This document shows, in pieces, positions 35,786-43,360 of a stretch of 64,000 nucleotides of DNA. The translations under genes were made by a program, and so were the position numbers. The first letter of the stretch is position 1, and each line of letters starts with the position of its first letter. The notes beneath the pieces were generated by a model that was not told the DNA's origin, searched no databases, and saw nothing but the letters and a program-made list of their open reading frames with translations. Source of the stretch: an uncultured delta proteobacterium (GTDB taxonomy: Bacteria; Myxococcota_A; UBA9160; JAFDET01); NCBI GenBank assembly GCA_947259215.1, contig CAMYLJ010000023.1, forward strand, positions 1-64,000, read 5' to 3'.

Positions 35786-38700
35786 CTACATGCAACGGCG
35801 GTAGCGGCCGCCCACCTCGAAGAGCGCGTCGCTAATCTGGCCCAGGCTCGCGACCTTCACCGTCTCGAGCAGCTCCTCGAACACGTTGTCCCCCGCCAGC
35901 GCCACCTCATGCAGCCGCGCGAGCGCCCCGGGCGCCCGCTCGGCATGGCGCGCGTGGAAGGCCTCGAGCTCGTCGAGCTGCGCGCGCTTCTCGTCATCGC
36001 TGGAGCGGATCAGGCGCTCGGCCTGGGGCGTCGGCTCGGGCGTCGGGCTCTCGAAGGTGTTGACGCCCACCACCGGCAGCTCGCCGGAGTGCTTCTTCTC
36101 CTCGTAGCGGAGGCTCTCCTCCTGGATCCGCCCGCGCTGGTAGAGCGTCTCCATCGCGCCGAGCACCCCGCCGCGCTCGGACAGGCGCTCGAACTCGGCC
36201 AGCACCGCCTCCTCCACGGCGTCGGTGAGCCACTCCATCACGTAGGCGCCCTGGAGCGGGTTCTCGTTCTTCGAGATCCCGAGCTCGCGGTTGATGATCA
36301 GCTGGATCGCCAGGGCGCGGCGCACCGACTCTTCGGTGGGCGTGGTGACGGCCTCATCGTAGGCGTTGGTGTGCAGGCTGTTGCAGTGGTCCTGGAGGGC
36401 GGTCAGCGCCTGGAGCGTGGTGCGGATGTCGTTGAAGGCCATCTCGCGGGCGTGGAGCGAGCGCCCCGACGTCTGCACGTGGTACTTGAGCTTCTGGCTG
36501 CGCTCGCCCGCCCCGTAGCGCTCGCGCAGGGCCACCGCCCAGATCCGCCGCGCCACCCGCCCGAGCACCTGGTACTCGGCGTCGAGCCCGTTGCTGAAGA
36601 AGAACGAGAAGTTCGGCGCGAAGTCGTCTACGGCCAGACCGCGGGCCAGGTAGTACTCCACGTAGGTGAAGCCGTTGGCCAGCGTGAAGGCCAGCTGCGT
36701 GATCGGGTTCGCCCCCGCCTCCGCCATGTGGTAGCCGGAGATCGAGACCGAGTAGAAGTTCCGCACGTCGTTCGCGCAGAAGTACTCCTGGATGTCGCCC
36801 ATCACCTTGAGCGAGAACTCGGTGGAGAAGATGCAGGTGTTCTGGGCCTGGTCCTCCTTCAGGATGTCCGCCTGCACGGTGCCGCGGACCTGCCGCAGCA
36901 CGTCCGCCTTGATGCGCCGGTAGACCTCCGGCTCCACGACCTCGTCGCCCGAGACGCCGAGGAGCGCCAGCCCCAGGCCGTCGTGGCCCTCGGGCCGCTC
37001 GCCCCGGTAGCGGGCCCGCGGCTCGATCTGCGCCAGCCCCCCGGTCTCGCGCAGGTGCTTCTCCACGCCCTGGTCGATGGCGGCGTTCAAGAAGAATGCC
37101 AGCACGGTCGGCGCCGGGCCGTTGATCGTCATGGAGACCGAGGTGCGCGGGTCGGCCAGGTCGAAGCCCGAGTACAGGCGCTTGGCGTCGTCCAGCGTGC
37201 AGACCGAGACGCCGGAGTTCCCGACCTTGCCGTAGACGTCCGGCCGCAGCGCGGGATCGCGGCCGTAGAGGGTCACGCTGTCGAAGGCGGTGGAGAGCCG
37301 GCTCGCCGGGTGGCCCCGGGAGAGCAGGTGGAAGCGCCGATTGGTGCGCTCGGGCAGGCCCTCGCCGGCGAACATGCGCGCCGGGTCTTCGCCCTCGCGC
37401 TTGAACGGGAAGACGCCCGCGGTGAACGGGAAGTGCCCCGGCAGGTTTTCCAGGCGCAGGAAGCGCGCCAGCGCGCCCCACTCGTCGTCGGGCGGGAGCG
37501 CGACCCGCGGCAGCTTGGTGCCCGCCAGGGTCTCGGCGCGGTTCGCGACCGGGATGTCCCGCTCGCGGACCGTGTAGTGCTGCTCGTCGGCTTCGTAGCG
37601 GGCGCGGGTGGCGGGCCACGCCTCGAGGCGCGCGCGCCAGTCGGCGTCCAGCTCCGCGCGCTCGCGCAGGGCGTCGTCTCCCGTGAGGGCCGCCGCCCGC
37701 TCCAGCGCCCAGGCGTCGCGAGAGCGCTCCGCCAGCCGCTCGCTCTCGCGCCGGTAGTCGCGCGCCCGCTCCGCGATCTCCGCCAGGTAGCGCCGGCGCG
37801 CGCCGGGGATCACCACCGGCGCCCCGATCTCGCCCGCCGGCGCGATCGAGCGAACGCCCCGCACGCGGTCGCGCAGGGCGCTGTAGAGGCGCGTCGTCCC
37901 CGGGTCGCCCCAGAGGCGCGCCACCGTCGGGAAGACCGAGCCGGGATCGCCGCCGTTGCGCTGCACCTGCTTGCGCACGTCGCGCAGGGCGTCCTCGGAG
38001 CCGTGGCGGTCGAACTTGTTCAGCACCACCAGGTCGGCCAGGTCGAGCATGTCGATCTTCTCGAGCTGGGTGGGCGCTCCGTACTCGGGCGTCATCACGT
38101 AGAGCGCGTGGTCGACCCGGTCGACGATCTCCGAGTCGCTCTGTCCGATGCCCGCGGTCTCGACGAAGAGCAGGTCGCAGCCCGCCGCCTGGAGCACGCG
38201 CACGGCGTCGCCCACCGCCGTCGAGAGCGAGCGGTGCGCGCGCCGGGTGGCGAGGGAGCGCACGAAGACGTGCTCCGGATCCAGGGCGTTCAGGCGGATG
38301 CGGTCGCCGAGGAGGGCCCCGCCGGAGCGACGGCGGGTCGGGTCCACCAGCACGAGGCCGATGCGCCAGTCCGGATGCTCGAGCCGAAAGCGCCGCACCA
38401 GCTCGTCCACCACGCTCGACTTGCCGGCGCCGCCCGTCCCGGTGAAGCCCACCACGGGCGCGGGCTCGGGCCGCCGGGCGTCGAGCGCGGCGCGCAGCTC
38501 CGCGCCCTGGTCCGGGTGGAGCTCGAGCCAGCTGATGAGCTGCGCCACCTGCGTCTGCGAGTCGAGCCGCTCGAGTACGTCGTCCGCCAGCACGCGCTCG
38601 CGCCCGCCGCACTCCGCCAGGATCAGGCGGATCATGCCCGCGAGCCCGAGGTCGCGGCCGTCCTCGGGCCCGAAGATGCGCGCCACGCCCGCGGCCTGGA

Positions 38701-39046
38701 GCTCCAGGCCCTCCTGGGGCGTGATCGTCCCGCCCCCGCCGCCGTAGACCCGCACGTGGCCGGCGCCGCGCTCGCGCAGGCGCTCCACCAGGTAGCGGAA
38801 GAACTCCATGTGGCCGCCCTGGTAGGAGGAGACCGCCAGCGCGTCGGCGTCCTCCTGGACGGCGGCGTCCACCAGCTCGTCCACCCCGCGGTCATGGCCC
38901 AGGTGGATCACCTCGGCGCCCTGGGCGAGGAGCAGCCGGCGCATGATGTTGATGGCCGCGTCGTGCCCGTCGAAGAGCGACGCCGCGGTCACGACCCGCA
39001 CCGGCGCGCCGGACACGGGCGCGCGTGCGACGGCGGGATGGCTCAT
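35786..39046 (-). CDS. icmF: Fused isobutyryl-CoA mutase
   Basis: 1086 residues, the IcmF layout. An N-terminal B12 domain (residues ~15-150, DGHDAAINIM with the cobalt-ligand His) is followed by a MeaI-type G domain (~190-430; GFTGTGGAGKSSVVDE, NKFD) and a C-terminal mutase barrel (~500-1086; RFHLLSRGHPASRLSTAFD, NTCIFSTEFSLK). IcmF interconverts isobutyryl-CoA and butyryl-CoA and carries its own chaperone GTPase. It overlaps the merR stop and is followed after 36 bp by the second mutase. Confidence 0.95.
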   Translation of the reverse strand: MSHPAVARAPVSGAPVRVVTAASLFDGHDAAINIMRRLLLAQGAEVIHLGHDRGVDELVDAAVQEDADALAVSSYQGGHMEFFRYLVERLRERGAGHVRVYGGGGGTITPQEGLELQAAGVARIFGPEDGRDLGLAGMIRLILAECGGRERVLADDVLERLDSQTQVAQLISWLELHPDQGAELRAALDARRPEPAPVVGFTGTGGAGKSSVVDELVRRFRLEHPDWRIGLVLVDPTRRRSGGALLGDRIRLNALDPEHVFVRSLATRRAHRSLSTAVGDAVRVLQAAGCDLLFVETAGIGQSDSEIVDRVDHALYVMTPEYGAPTQLEKIDMLDLADLVVLNKFDRHGSEDALRDVRKQVQRNGGDPGSVFPTVARLWGDPGTTRLYSALRDRVRGVRSIAPAGEIGAPVVIPGARRRYLAEIAERARDYRRESERLAERSRDAWALERAAALTGDDALRERAELDADWRARLEAWPATRARYEADEQHYTVRERDIPVANRAETLAGTKLPRVALPPDDEWGALARFLRLENLPGHFPFTAGVFPFKREGEDPARMFAGEGLPERTNRRFHLLSRGHPASRLSTAFDSVTLYGRDPALRPDVYGKVGNSGVSVCTLDDAKRLYSGFDLADPRTSVSMTINGPAPTVLAFFLNAAIDQGVEKHLRETGGLAQIEPRARYRGERPEGHDGLGLALLGVSGDEVVEPEVYRRIKADVLRQVRGTVQADILKEDQAQNTCIFSTEFSLKVMGDIQEYFCANDVRNFYSVSISGYHMAEAGANPITQLAFTLANGFTYVEYYLARGLAVDDFAPNFSFFFSNGLDAEYQVLGRVARRIWAVALRERYGAGERSQKLKYHVQTSGRSLHAREMAFNDIRTTLQALTALQDHCNSLHTNAYDEAVTTPTEESVRRALAIQLIINRELGISKNENPLQGAYVMEWLTDAVEEAVLAEFERLSERGGVLGAMETLYQRGRIQEESLRYEEKKHSGELPVVGVNTFESPTPEPTPQAERLIRSSDDEKRAQLDELEAFHARHAERAPGALARLHEVALAGDNVFEELLETVKVASLGQISDALFEVGGRYRRCM

Positions 39047-39453
39047 CGCCGGCGCCTCCCGGTGATGCGAACGCCCACGTGGTCGCGGTACTTCTCGATC
39101 TCGTCGCGCAGGTCCATCAGCTCCCGCAGCCGCGTATCGACCTCCTGGAGGTGTCCCTCCAGCAGCTCGTTCAGGCGCCCCAGCATGGCCGCGGTGCCGC
39201 CCTCGATGCCGTGGACCGCGTTCAGGTCGCGGATCTCGTCCAGGGACAGGCCCAGGCTCTTGAGGCGCCGGATGAAGCTCAGGCGCTCGAGCTCGTCGCG
39301 TCCGTAGACCCGGCGGCCGCCCTCGCGCCGGCGCACGCCCGGCAGCAGGCCGAGCTCCTCGTAGTACCGCAACGTGCGGGCCGAAACGCCCGTCTTCTCG
39401 GAGACTTCACCGATCGAGGCGAGCTTTTCGTCGGCGACGCTTTGCCAGCTCAC
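39043..39453 (-). CDS. MerR-family regulator of the mutase operon
   Basis: 136 residues. MerR helix-turn-helix ASIGEVSEKTGVSARTLRYY and RRVYGRDELERLSFIRRLKSL, then a coiled-coil dimer helix (EVDTRLRELMDLRDEIEKY). There are no metal-ligand cysteines. Its stop overlaps the icmF start, so it is the first gene of the icmF-mutase-meaB operon and probably controls it, perhaps by sensing an acyl-CoA. MerR proteins of this kind often accompany fatty-acid or leucine degradation genes. Confidence 0.88.
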   Translation of the reverse strand: MSWQSVADEKLASIGEVSEKTGVSARTLRYYEELGLLPGVRRREGGRRVYGRDELERLSFIRRLKSLGLSLDEIRDLNAVHGIEGGTAAMLGRLNELLEGHLQEVDTRLRELMDLRDEIEKYRDHVGVRITGRRRR

Positions 39454-39521: not shown

Positions 39522-41504
39522 GTGGCCGCGCTCCCCGAGCTCACCCGCCGCATCTTCCTGTCGCGAAGCCTCCAGGCCGTGGGGATGCTGGCCGTCGGGC
39601 CGGCCTGCGCGCCGAGCGGGCGGACCCGGGCCCCGGCCGAGCTGGCAGTGCTCTCGCCCGGCAGCTGGGAGATCCTGGCCGCGGCCGCCGACACCTTCGT
39701 GCCCCGCGGCGGCGCCTTCGCGCTCGGCGCCCGGGACGTGGATCTCGCGACGCGCATCGACGCCTTCCTCGCGGAGGGCGACCCCGAGCTGGTGTCGGGC
39801 CTCGAAGGGGGACTCGTGCTGCTCGAGTGGGCGGGGCCGGTCCTGGCGGGACGCCTCGGCCGCTTCTCGCACCTCGGACCGGAGGATCGCGCGACGGTGG
39901 TGGCCGCCCTCCCCCGCCGCGGCGGCCCCGGCCGGACCCTCTATGCGGGCCTGAAGCAGGTCTGCCTGTTCGCTGTAGTCGAGGGTCGCGAGATCACGCG
40001 CCCGCTCGAGCGGCGGACCCACACGCTGGTGGTCGGCTCCGGCGCCGGGGGCGCGGTGGTGGCGCAGACCCTGGCGGCGGGCGGCGTCGAGGTGACCGTG
40101 CTGGAAGAAGGCGGCCGCTTCGGCGCCCGGGACTTCAGCCAGCGCGAGGACGAGATGTTCCCGGCGCTCTACCGCGCCGGCGCCCAGCAGTTCACGGCCG
40201 ACGGCATGATCAACGTGCTCCAGGGCTCGTGCCTCGGCGGCGGCACCGTGATCAACATGGCCGACTGCACGCCGAGCCCGCCGGAGGTCTTCGCGCACTG
40301 GAAGCGCCTGCTCGGTCTGGACGCGATCGACGAGCGCTCCCTCGAGCCCTCGCTGCGCCGCGTCTCGCGCCGGCTCCAGGTGAACCGCATCCGCAGCTCC
40401 CAGGTGAACGGCAACAACCGCAAGATCCTGACCGGCGCGCGTCGCCTGGGCCTCGCCGCGGGCACCTTCGACAACAACCGGGTCGGCTGCACGGGAAGCG
40501 GCTACTGCCTGATCGGCTGCGCCTACGACGCCAAGCAGGGCGCGCACATCACCTACCTCCCCGCCGCGGTCGAGGCCGGGGCCGAGATCCTGACCGACTG
40601 CCGGGTGGAGCGGCTCGAGGGCCGAGCGCGCGGGGGCTGGATCGTGCACGGCGAGGTGGTGGAGCGCGGTTCGCGGCGGGCACGGCTGCCCCTGCGCGTC
40701 GAGGCGGAGCGCGTGGTGCTGGCGGCCGGCGCCGTGCACTCCCCCGCCATCCTCGCGCGCTCGGACCTGGGGCGCGGCCTGCCCCAGCTCGGTCACAACC
40801 TGACGCTCCAGCCGCAGATCGGGGTGGTGGCGGTCTTCCCCGACGAGGTCGGTCTCTGGCGCGGGATCCCCCAGGCCAGCTACTGCGACGCCTACGACGA
40901 CAACCGCGCCGAGCACGGCCTCGGGGGCTTCCGGCTGGAGGGCGTCCAGGGCGGCATCGCCAACGGCGCCGGCATGCTGGCCGGATTCGGCGCGGACCAC
41001 AAGCGCGCCGTGGCGGACCTCCCGCGCACCGCCATGGGCCTGGTGCTGGTCCCCGACCAGCCCTCGGGCCGCATCCGCTGGCGCTGGCGCGAGAAGCGCG
41101 GCGTCGCGCCGAAGATCGAGTACTGGCTGAAGCGCGAGTGGCGGGCGCGCCTGCGCCGCGGGATGCGCCACGCCGCCGAGCTCTACTTCGCCGCCGGCGC
41201 GCGCCGGGTGAGCTTCCCGAGCGAGCTCTTCCCGCCCCTGACCGCGCCGGACCAGCTCGACCGCATCGCGGAGTTCCCGATCGCGGCGGGCGTCACCAAC
41301 TTCATCTCCGCCCACGTGCAGGGTACCTGCCGCATGAGCCTGGACGCGCGCCGCGGCGTGGTGAACCAGGACCACCGGGTGCACGGGCTCCCCGGGCTCT
41401 ACGTCAGCGACGCCTCGGTCATGCCCACCAGCGCCTCGACCCACACCATGATCCCGATCATGGCCATGGCGGACCGGGCGGCCCGGCGCATGCTCGACGC
41501 CTGA
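39522..41504 (+). CDS. GMC-family oxidoreductase, Tat-exported
   Basis: 660 residues from a GTG. The N-terminus TRRIFLSRSLQAVGMLAVGP ends in a Cys (PAC), so it is a twin-arginine signal that may be processed as a lipoprotein. Residues ~35-150 resemble the small gluconate-2-dehydrogenase subunit. The FAD domain starts LVVGSGAGGAVVAQTLAAGG. The C-terminal GMC signature contains SAHVQGTCRMS and VSDASVMPTSASTHTM. It oxidises an alcohol or sterol in the periplasm; the substrate is unknown. It converges on the AhpD-like gene with an 8-bp gap. Confidence 0.88.
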   Translation: MAALPELTRRIFLSRSLQAVGMLAVGPACAPSGRTRAPAELAVLSPGSWEILAAAADTFVPRGGAFALGARDVDLATRIDAFLAEGDPELVSGLEGGLVLLEWAGPVLAGRLGRFSHLGPEDRATVVAALPRRGGPGRTLYAGLKQVCLFAVVEGREITRPLERRTHTLVVGSGAGGAVVAQTLAAGGVEVTVLEEGGRFGARDFSQREDEMFPALYRAGAQQFTADGMINVLQGSCLGGGTVINMADCTPSPPEVFAHWKRLLGLDAIDERSLEPSLRRVSRRLQVNRIRSSQVNGNNRKILTGARRLGLAAGTFDNNRVGCTGSGYCLIGCAYDAKQGAHITYLPAAVEAGAEILTDCRVERLEGRARGGWIVHGEVVERGSRRARLPLRVEAERVVLAAGAVHSPAILARSDLGRGLPQLGHNLTLQPQIGVVAVFPDEVGLWRGIPQASYCDAYDDNRAEHGLGGFRLEGVQGGIANGAGMLAGFGADHKRAVADLPRTAMGLVLVPDQPSGRIRWRWREKRGVAPKIEYWLKREWRARLRRGMRHAAELYFAAGARRVSFPSELFPPLTAPDQLDRIAEFPIAAGVTNFISAHVQGTCRMSLDARRGVVNQDHRVHGLPGLYVSDASVMPTSASTHTMIPIMAMADRAARRMLDA

Positions 41505-41512
41505 GCGGCGCC

Positions 41513-42631
41513 TCAGGCGCCGGGCGTGTTGGCCGAGGAGCCGAAGCGCGCCAGGTCGAGCTCTTCGCGCACCGCCGCGCTCATCATCAGCAGCGCCGGG
41601 TCGAGGGGAATGCCCGTAGCGTCGGCGATCCGGTCCACCACGTTGAAGGCCCCGATGACCGCGCAGGCGTCCAGGAAGGCCGCGTCGCCGAGCACCTCCC
41701 GCAGGGCCGCCCGCTCCCGGGCGAGGGCCGCGTCGTCGGCGCCCATCACGGCTTCGGTGAAGGCCAGAAGCCGGGCGCCGTGCTCGACGCCACCGTCCCC
41801 CGCGTCCGAGCCGTGGACCCCGGCGAGTTCGACGCTCGCGCCCTGCGTCTCGCCGCTCGCCCGGAGCAGCGTTGCATGGGCGGTGGTTCAGTAGAAGCAC
41901 TCGTTCAGCGCCGAGACGCGCGAGGCCACCAGCTCCATCTGCGGCCGGTCCAGGTCCCGGCGCACGCTCGGGTCGGCGATGGCCTCGACCGCCACGTAGT
42001 GGGCGTTCGAGCTGGCCTGGAGGGCGCGCGCGTGGTCCGGCACCAGCGAGAGCGCGCGCATGATGTTGGGGATCATCGGCGCTTCGGGGTAGAGGTCCGC
42101 CTCGGGCCCCTCGGCGTCCTCGAGCGCGATCATCGGCACCCAGGCCTCGCCGGGCTTCGCGCCGAGCGGGCGCTGCCGTGACGGCTCGCCGGCGAGCGGC
42201 TCGGGCAGCCGGAAGACCGGGATCCCGAGCGCCCGGCAGAAGTAGTCGGCGCCGGCCAGGAGCGTCACCACGCCGACCGCCTCGACGTACTCCGCATCGC
42301 TCAGCCCGGCGTCGAGGGTCTCCTCGAACCAGCGGCGGGAGAGCCGGGCGGGATCGTTGCGAACCCGGTGGGCAACCTCGACCAGCGGATCGGACAGATC
42401 GCTCAGCGCGTCGTGGCTGCCCTGCACCGCCGCGGGGGAGACCGCCTCCTTGCGCTCGCGGCAGAGGCGGCAGTGCGCGGCGTTCCGGCTCTCGGCGGCG
42501 ATCGCCAGGCGCTGCGCCCCGCTGAACCAGCTTCCAGGCCCGCGCAGGTGCTCCAGGATCCGCGCGTGAGCCTCCCGCAGGTCGTCCCGGACGGGGACCG
42601 GGGAGGCGCTGTAGTCGGCCGTCGGCGGCAT
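41513..42631 (-). CDS. AhpD-like (CMD family) protein, candidate selenoprotein with CxxU
   Basis: Two open segments in one frame, 42631-41891 and 41887-41513, are separated only by a TGA at 41888-41890. Read through, they give a 372-residue alkylhydroperoxidase-D-like protein with two carboxymuconolactone-decarboxylase modules. The TGA is codon 248 and falls exactly on the second residue of the active-site motif: ALNECFY, then U, then TTAHATLLR, that is CxxUxxxH. Homology continues on both sides, and the downstream part has no start of its own. A SECIS-like hairpin follows the TGA. AhpD-like proteins with CxxU are a known bacterial selenoprotein group. An N-terminal HCRLC adds another CxxC. 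A Cys-to-stop mutation is the alternative. Confidence 0.78.
41851..41871 (-). promoter_or_regulatory. Bacterial SECIS-like hairpin after the in-frame UGA
   Basis: In the mRNA, 16 nt after the UGA, CGCUGCUC pairs over 8 bp with GAGCGGCG around the loop CGGGC. The loop begins 25 nt after the UGA and has G at its second position. This meets the general description of bacterial SECIS elements: a short stem, a small apical loop with an early G, and a loop some 16-37 nt downstream. Confidence 0.6.
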
Positions 42632-42673
42632 GCCGCTCCCTCCGAGTCCCCAAAGTCTACCAGACCGCCATCG

Positions 42674-43360
42674 TCATACGGCGGCTCGCGCCATGCAGCA
42701 CTCCGACCCTCGCACGCAGCGGCAGCCGACCACCGCGAGGCCCGCCCCGACCGCGGGACCGAGCAGGTAGACCCAGACGTGCTGGAGCTGCCCGCCGACC
42801 AGTGCCGGAGCCAGTGATCTCGCCGGGTTCATCGAGGCCCCGGAGATGGGCCCGGCGAAGAGCGCCGCGAGCCCGACCACGGCCCCGATGGCGAGGCCTG
42901 CGGTGATGCCCTTCTCCTTGGCTCCGGTCGAGACGCTGAGGATCGTGAACATCAGCAGAAAGCGCAGGACGGTCTCCAGGGCGAAGGACTGCCCGACGCT
43001 GCCCGCGGGCAGGGTGGCACCCAGGTTCGAAGCCGTCCCGAACAGGACCCGGACGAGCAGGCTGGCCACGAGCGCACCCGCAAGCTGACTCCCAACGTAG
43101 GGAGCGACGTCCACTCCCGGGAGACGCCGAGCGACCCAGAAGCCGAACGTGACGGCGGGATTGATGGGAGCGCCCGAGATGTCGCCGACTGAGTAGATCA
43201 TCGCCGTCACGACGAGCCCGAAGGTCAGCGCGACCCCCACGTGGGACACCGCGCCTCCGCTGAGGTCATTCACCACGATCGCGCCGGTCCCCGCGAAGAC
43301 CAGGGCGAACGTCCCGATACCTTCCGCCACGAACCGCGCTGCCGGCGTCGGTTGCCTCAA
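42674..43360 (-). CDS. Aquaporin / glycerol facilitator (MIP family)
   Basis: 228 residues, six hydrophobic helices and both NPA half-helices (GAPINPAVT and GASMNPARS). The residues around the second NPA and the short loops favour a water channel over a glycerol channel, but this is not firm. The C-terminal tail is unusual: CRCVRGSECCMARAAV holds four cysteines in eleven residues, which could bind metal or form disulfides. It lies 42 bp upstream of the AhpD-like gene on the same strand. Confidence 0.9.
   Translation of the reverse strand: MRQPTPAARFVAEGIGTFALVFAGTGAIVVNDLSGGAVSHVGVALTFGLVVTAMIYSVGDISGAPINPAVTFGFWVARRLPGVDVAPYVGSQLAGALVASLLVRVLFGTASNLGATLPAGSVGQSFALETVLRFLLMFTILSVSTGAKEKGITAGLAIGAVVGLAALFAGPISGASMNPARSLAPALVGGQLQHVWVYLLGPAVGAGLAVVGCRCVRGSECCMARAAV

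Follow-up and report, generated by a model that had tools for sequence, protein, structure and literature searches.

The catalytic tetrad of AhpD, which in mycobacteria is an alkylhydroperoxidase, has the spacing E-x11-C-x2-C/U-x3-H. Among selenoproteins related to AhpD, hypothetical protein 1 was first reported in 2005 in the Sargasso Sea study, where Cys homologues of it are also tabulated (PMC1088965). In a review published in 2026, NF041238 appears under the entry 'AhpD-related protein (hypothetical protein 1, Sargasso Sea metagenome)', with a CxxU motif (PMC13188914).

The gene described here (Table 1) lies on the minus strand of a 64-kb window, by which we mean the whole stretch of DNA analysed, and is a further member of this already described selenoprotein family; the family itself is not new. 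Its product scores 464 bits against the NF041238 model ('AhpD_rel_CFYUT, alkylhydroperoxidase-related (seleno)protein'; cut-off 175), and the match extends over residues 14-364 and model positions 1-356 of 357, covering both halves of the protein. The CFYUT motif of the model's name is present with an in-frame UGA, the CxxU, the conserved UGA and a downstream hairpin are likewise shared, and no difference from the family was found, the N-terminal CxxC being its common form. TIGR01926-type AhpD-like selenoproteins (COG2128) share the CMD/AhpD core with CxxU, but our protein falls below that cut-off (59.2 vs 81.8 bits) and, with a further module at its N-terminus, has twice the length. The active-site spacing is also that of mycobacterial AhpD, from which the protein differs in its greater length and in having a predicted Sec in place of the peroxidatic Cys. 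We regard the selenoprotein reading and the assignment to NF041238 as very nearly certain, with Sec incorporation itself predicted from sequence.

Table 1. Features of the selenoprotein gene, in window coordinates
Feature	Position	Strand	Evidence
AhpD-related CFYU selenoprotein gene (NF041238), 372 codons including predicted Sec248, then TGA stop	41513..42631	-	translation with TGA=U; NF041238 464 bits
In-frame UGA codon 248, predicted selenocysteine of CxxU	41888..41890	-	sequence; at CFYU in all homologues read
Active-site motif C245-F-Y-U248	41888..41899	-	invariant in 38 aligned homologous copies
bSECIS-like hairpin, 8 bp, 5-nt loop CGGGC, 16 nt after UGA	41851..41871	-	consensus fold, compensation, synonymous constraint
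Glu233, candidate AhpD proton-relay residue (E-x11-C-x2-U-x3-H)	41933..41935	-	invariant in alignment; putative role by analogy with AhpD
His252, candidate AhpD proton-relay residue	41876..41878	-	37/38 aligned copies; putative role by analogy with AhpD
N-terminal C54-R-L-C57 motif	42461..42472	-	CxxC in 36/45 copies; in register with CFYU
Ribosome-binding site GGAGG, 7 nt upstream of ATG	42639..42643	-	sequence

Reading frame across the internal UGA

An earlier note on this DNA held that two in-frame segments join into one AhpD-like protein on read-through of a TGA placed where the redox Cys of a CxxC belongs. Translation with TGA as U bears this out, giving a single protein of 372 residues that runs to a normal TGA stop. 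The internal TGA is the sole interruption of the frame and falls in the context ...SALNECFYUTTAHATLLRASGE..., whereas the product of the ordinary code stops early, at 247 residues. Past this codon the earliest in-frame start is a GTG at codon 295, and the 18 nt preceding it contain no GGAGG-like site, leaving the C-terminal half without a start of its own, as the note had also stated. What is very probably a true selenoprotein gene was thus recovered by naive reading, where ordinary-code annotation would truncate it at codon 247.

Taken alone, an open frame beyond a TGA is unremarkable in this GC-rich window: of 93 long ORFs with a TGA stop, 28 can be extended past it by 120 or more codons. 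Moreover, when the single sequence is folded, neither the 40-nt stretch proposed in the note nor a 48-nt stretch has the hairpin as its minimum-energy structure. For these reasons one sequence alone proves little; it is conservation across homologues that lifts the observation above chance.

Conservation of the UGA, the active site and the hairpin

The source genome encodes a paralogue, 52% identical, which likewise has one in-frame TGA. When 284 genomes of the phylum are searched with the NF041238 model, 37 of them yield a total of 61 matches over the curated cut-off, and all 61 contain exactly one internal TGA. In every homologous copy read, this TGA is located at CFYU, and neither a Cys form nor any other residue at codon 248 was found among the 61 members. 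This Sec-only pattern suggests that Cys cannot adequately replace Sec in the phylum; if so, the family would be a reasonable case in which to test why Sec has been kept. A scan of genome contigs gives two relatives only, one of them ending just past the Sec site, and tblastn finds none in plasmids. In two genomes (L062, L063), two CFYU selenoprotein gene copies lie close together on opposite strands.

Conservation extends to the surroundings of the UGA. Across 38 aligned copies E233, C245, F246, Y247, position 248 and T249 do not vary; 37 of these copies extend to H252 and all of them have it, the 38th being cut off by a contig end. E233, C245, U248 and H252 together reproduce the AhpD tetrad spacing. 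The downstream half is conserved at the protein level up to the stop, in keeping with the earlier claim that it retains family sequence.

The hairpin, which the note had described with its 8 bp, its loop and its distance from the UGA, is present and conserved in 36 homologues. In a 54-nt alignment of these sequences 96.9% of the pair cells are kept, and RNAalifold independently returns seven of the eight pairs. Column pair 22/38 changes from C-G to A-U in 13 sequences and column pair 23/37 from U-G to U-A in 16, so that a double-sided, compensatory change is seen at one pair only. Because related sequences inflate such pair counts, we place the main weight on two other results. In a slid-partner control 26-60% of cells are paired, and in a codon-level analysis of 37 homologues the peak of synonymous constraint, at codons 255-261, lies exactly under the hairpin. 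The best 10-codon window there is 0.52 above expectation against a gene median of 0.05, with CTG (22/22), CTC (36/36), GCG (28/28) and AGC (32/32) codons invariant within 255-261. A hairpin just past the UGA with a small apical loop containing G, as expected of a bacterial selenoprotein gene, is found here, and the loop is conserved among homologues as CGKGC. Rfam returns nothing meaningful over the gene.

The machinery for Sec insertion, whose absence the note had named as grounds for rejecting its reading, is present in the source genome (5.7 Mb in 128 contigs, an estimated 96% complete). A tRNA-Sec scores 73.7 bits (gathering score 47), with the anticodon UCA assigned by ARAGORN, and it is accompanied by SelA (505 bits; Pfam SelA), SelB (over the cut-off, with SelB winged-helix domains) and SelD (324 bits; L017:1435-2490, genome contig C5). 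We further note that this SelD is a Sec protein itself, with UGA at the GGUARKL position.

Alternative readings and proposed mechanism

The truncated product of the ordinary code and the frequency of open frames after TGA in the window are both what would be expected of a pseudogene or a sequencing error, in which the TGA is a mutated or misread Cys codon and the downstream half is decaying. A decaying half is, however, at odds with protein-level conservation to the stop and with invariant synonymous codons in the hairpin, and the same error would have to recur not only in the paralogue but in each of the 61 homologues over the threshold across 37 genomes. This independent conservation of the TGA rules the explanation out, and what probability it keeps is negligible. 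An open frame across the UGA would also follow if UGA were read as Cys or Trp, through general reassignment of the code or a suppressor tRNA. Yet TGA terminates the selenoprotein gene itself and many of its homologues, the genome has a full Sec system including tRNA-Sec, and a conserved hairpin adjoins the internal UGA. We reject reassignment, which is highly improbable, on the conservation of the UGA and the Sec machinery of the genome.

A further alternative concerns the chemistry only and leaves the selenoprotein assignment untouched. The protein could be a thiol/selenol oxidoreductase of the CMD fold with a different substrate, for example a lipid or a small-molecule disulfide. The CMD superfamily includes non-peroxidases, no conserved partner gene or peroxide or detoxification neighbourhood appears across 20 family loci, and some family copies adjoin short-chain dehydrogenase or enoyl-CoA hydratase-like genes. 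Against this stand the tetrad spacing shared with AhpD and the closest solved structures, which are AhpD-type proteins, found with modest E-values; an AlphaFold2 model built from a 3-sequence alignment (mean pLDDT 36) is too poor for use. On this evidence a non-peroxidase is a credible, less favoured possibility, while peroxidase chemistry is somewhat favoured, and the most likely role is that of a selenol-dependent peroxidase or thiol/selenol redox exchanger.

Under the selenoprotein reading, ribosomes would start at ATG 42631 and reach the UGA at 41890-41888, where SelB, docked on the hairpin (41871-41851), would deliver Sec-tRNA(Sec), and translation would run on to the TGA at 41515-41513. 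The predicted product consists of two tandem AhpD/CMD-like modules, with the putative tetrad in the C-terminal one. There, the selenolate of U248 would replace the peroxidatic Cys and C245 would resolve it through a Se-S bond, to be reset by a thiol reductant. Reduction is possibly relayed via the N-terminal C54 and C57.

The N-terminal module and the gene neighbourhood

The earlier note had further suggested that the double-module form with an extra N-terminal CxxC (HCRLC) may be a new variant. A CxxC at the position of C54-R-L-C57 is found in 36 of 45 distinct family copies, which makes it the usual form and the standard NF041238 architecture rather than a new variant. The interpretation of the locus thus stands in its central part, a selenoprotein with Sec machinery in the genome and a conserved UGA and hairpin, and not in its claim of novelty. 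The nine copies in which no N-terminal CxxC is recognised comprise six short ones that form one well-supported clade (L072, L073, L074, L077, L078 and the minus-strand copy of L062), the divergent L070, which falls outside that clade, L071, which has CPFN instead, and the isolated L057. The six short copies and L070 keep CFYU.

When the two halves are compared as profiles, about 100 columns align colinearly, with CRLC opposite CFYU (probability 50%, P 1.6e-4). The N-terminal half alone gives a weak match to TIGR01926 (E 0.0027) and matches no Pfam family. These similarities make it likely, if not proven, that the N-terminal half arose by internal duplication of the AhpD module and has since degenerated. 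A broader scenario, which we consider rather unlikely, is that Myxococcota hold an expanded, effectively Sec-only redox family with several copies per genome, in which the N-terminal CxxC module would pass electrons within the protein to the CxxU site and would have been lost in the distinct short subgroup.

Directly upstream of the selenoprotein gene, on the same strand and 42 nt before its ATG, lies an aquaporin-family (MIP) gene (42674-43360), which is not a conserved neighbour. A GMC oxidoreductase gene on the plus strand (39522-41504) is convergent with the selenoprotein gene, with 8 nt between the stops. Since this context is not conserved, we do not take these neighbours as evidence on function. 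Farther along, a long minus-strand ORF (35786-39046) resembles by eye a fused methylmalonyl/isobutyryl-CoA mutase, and it is overlapped by a gene for a MerR-family regulator (39043-39453, minus strand; Pfam).
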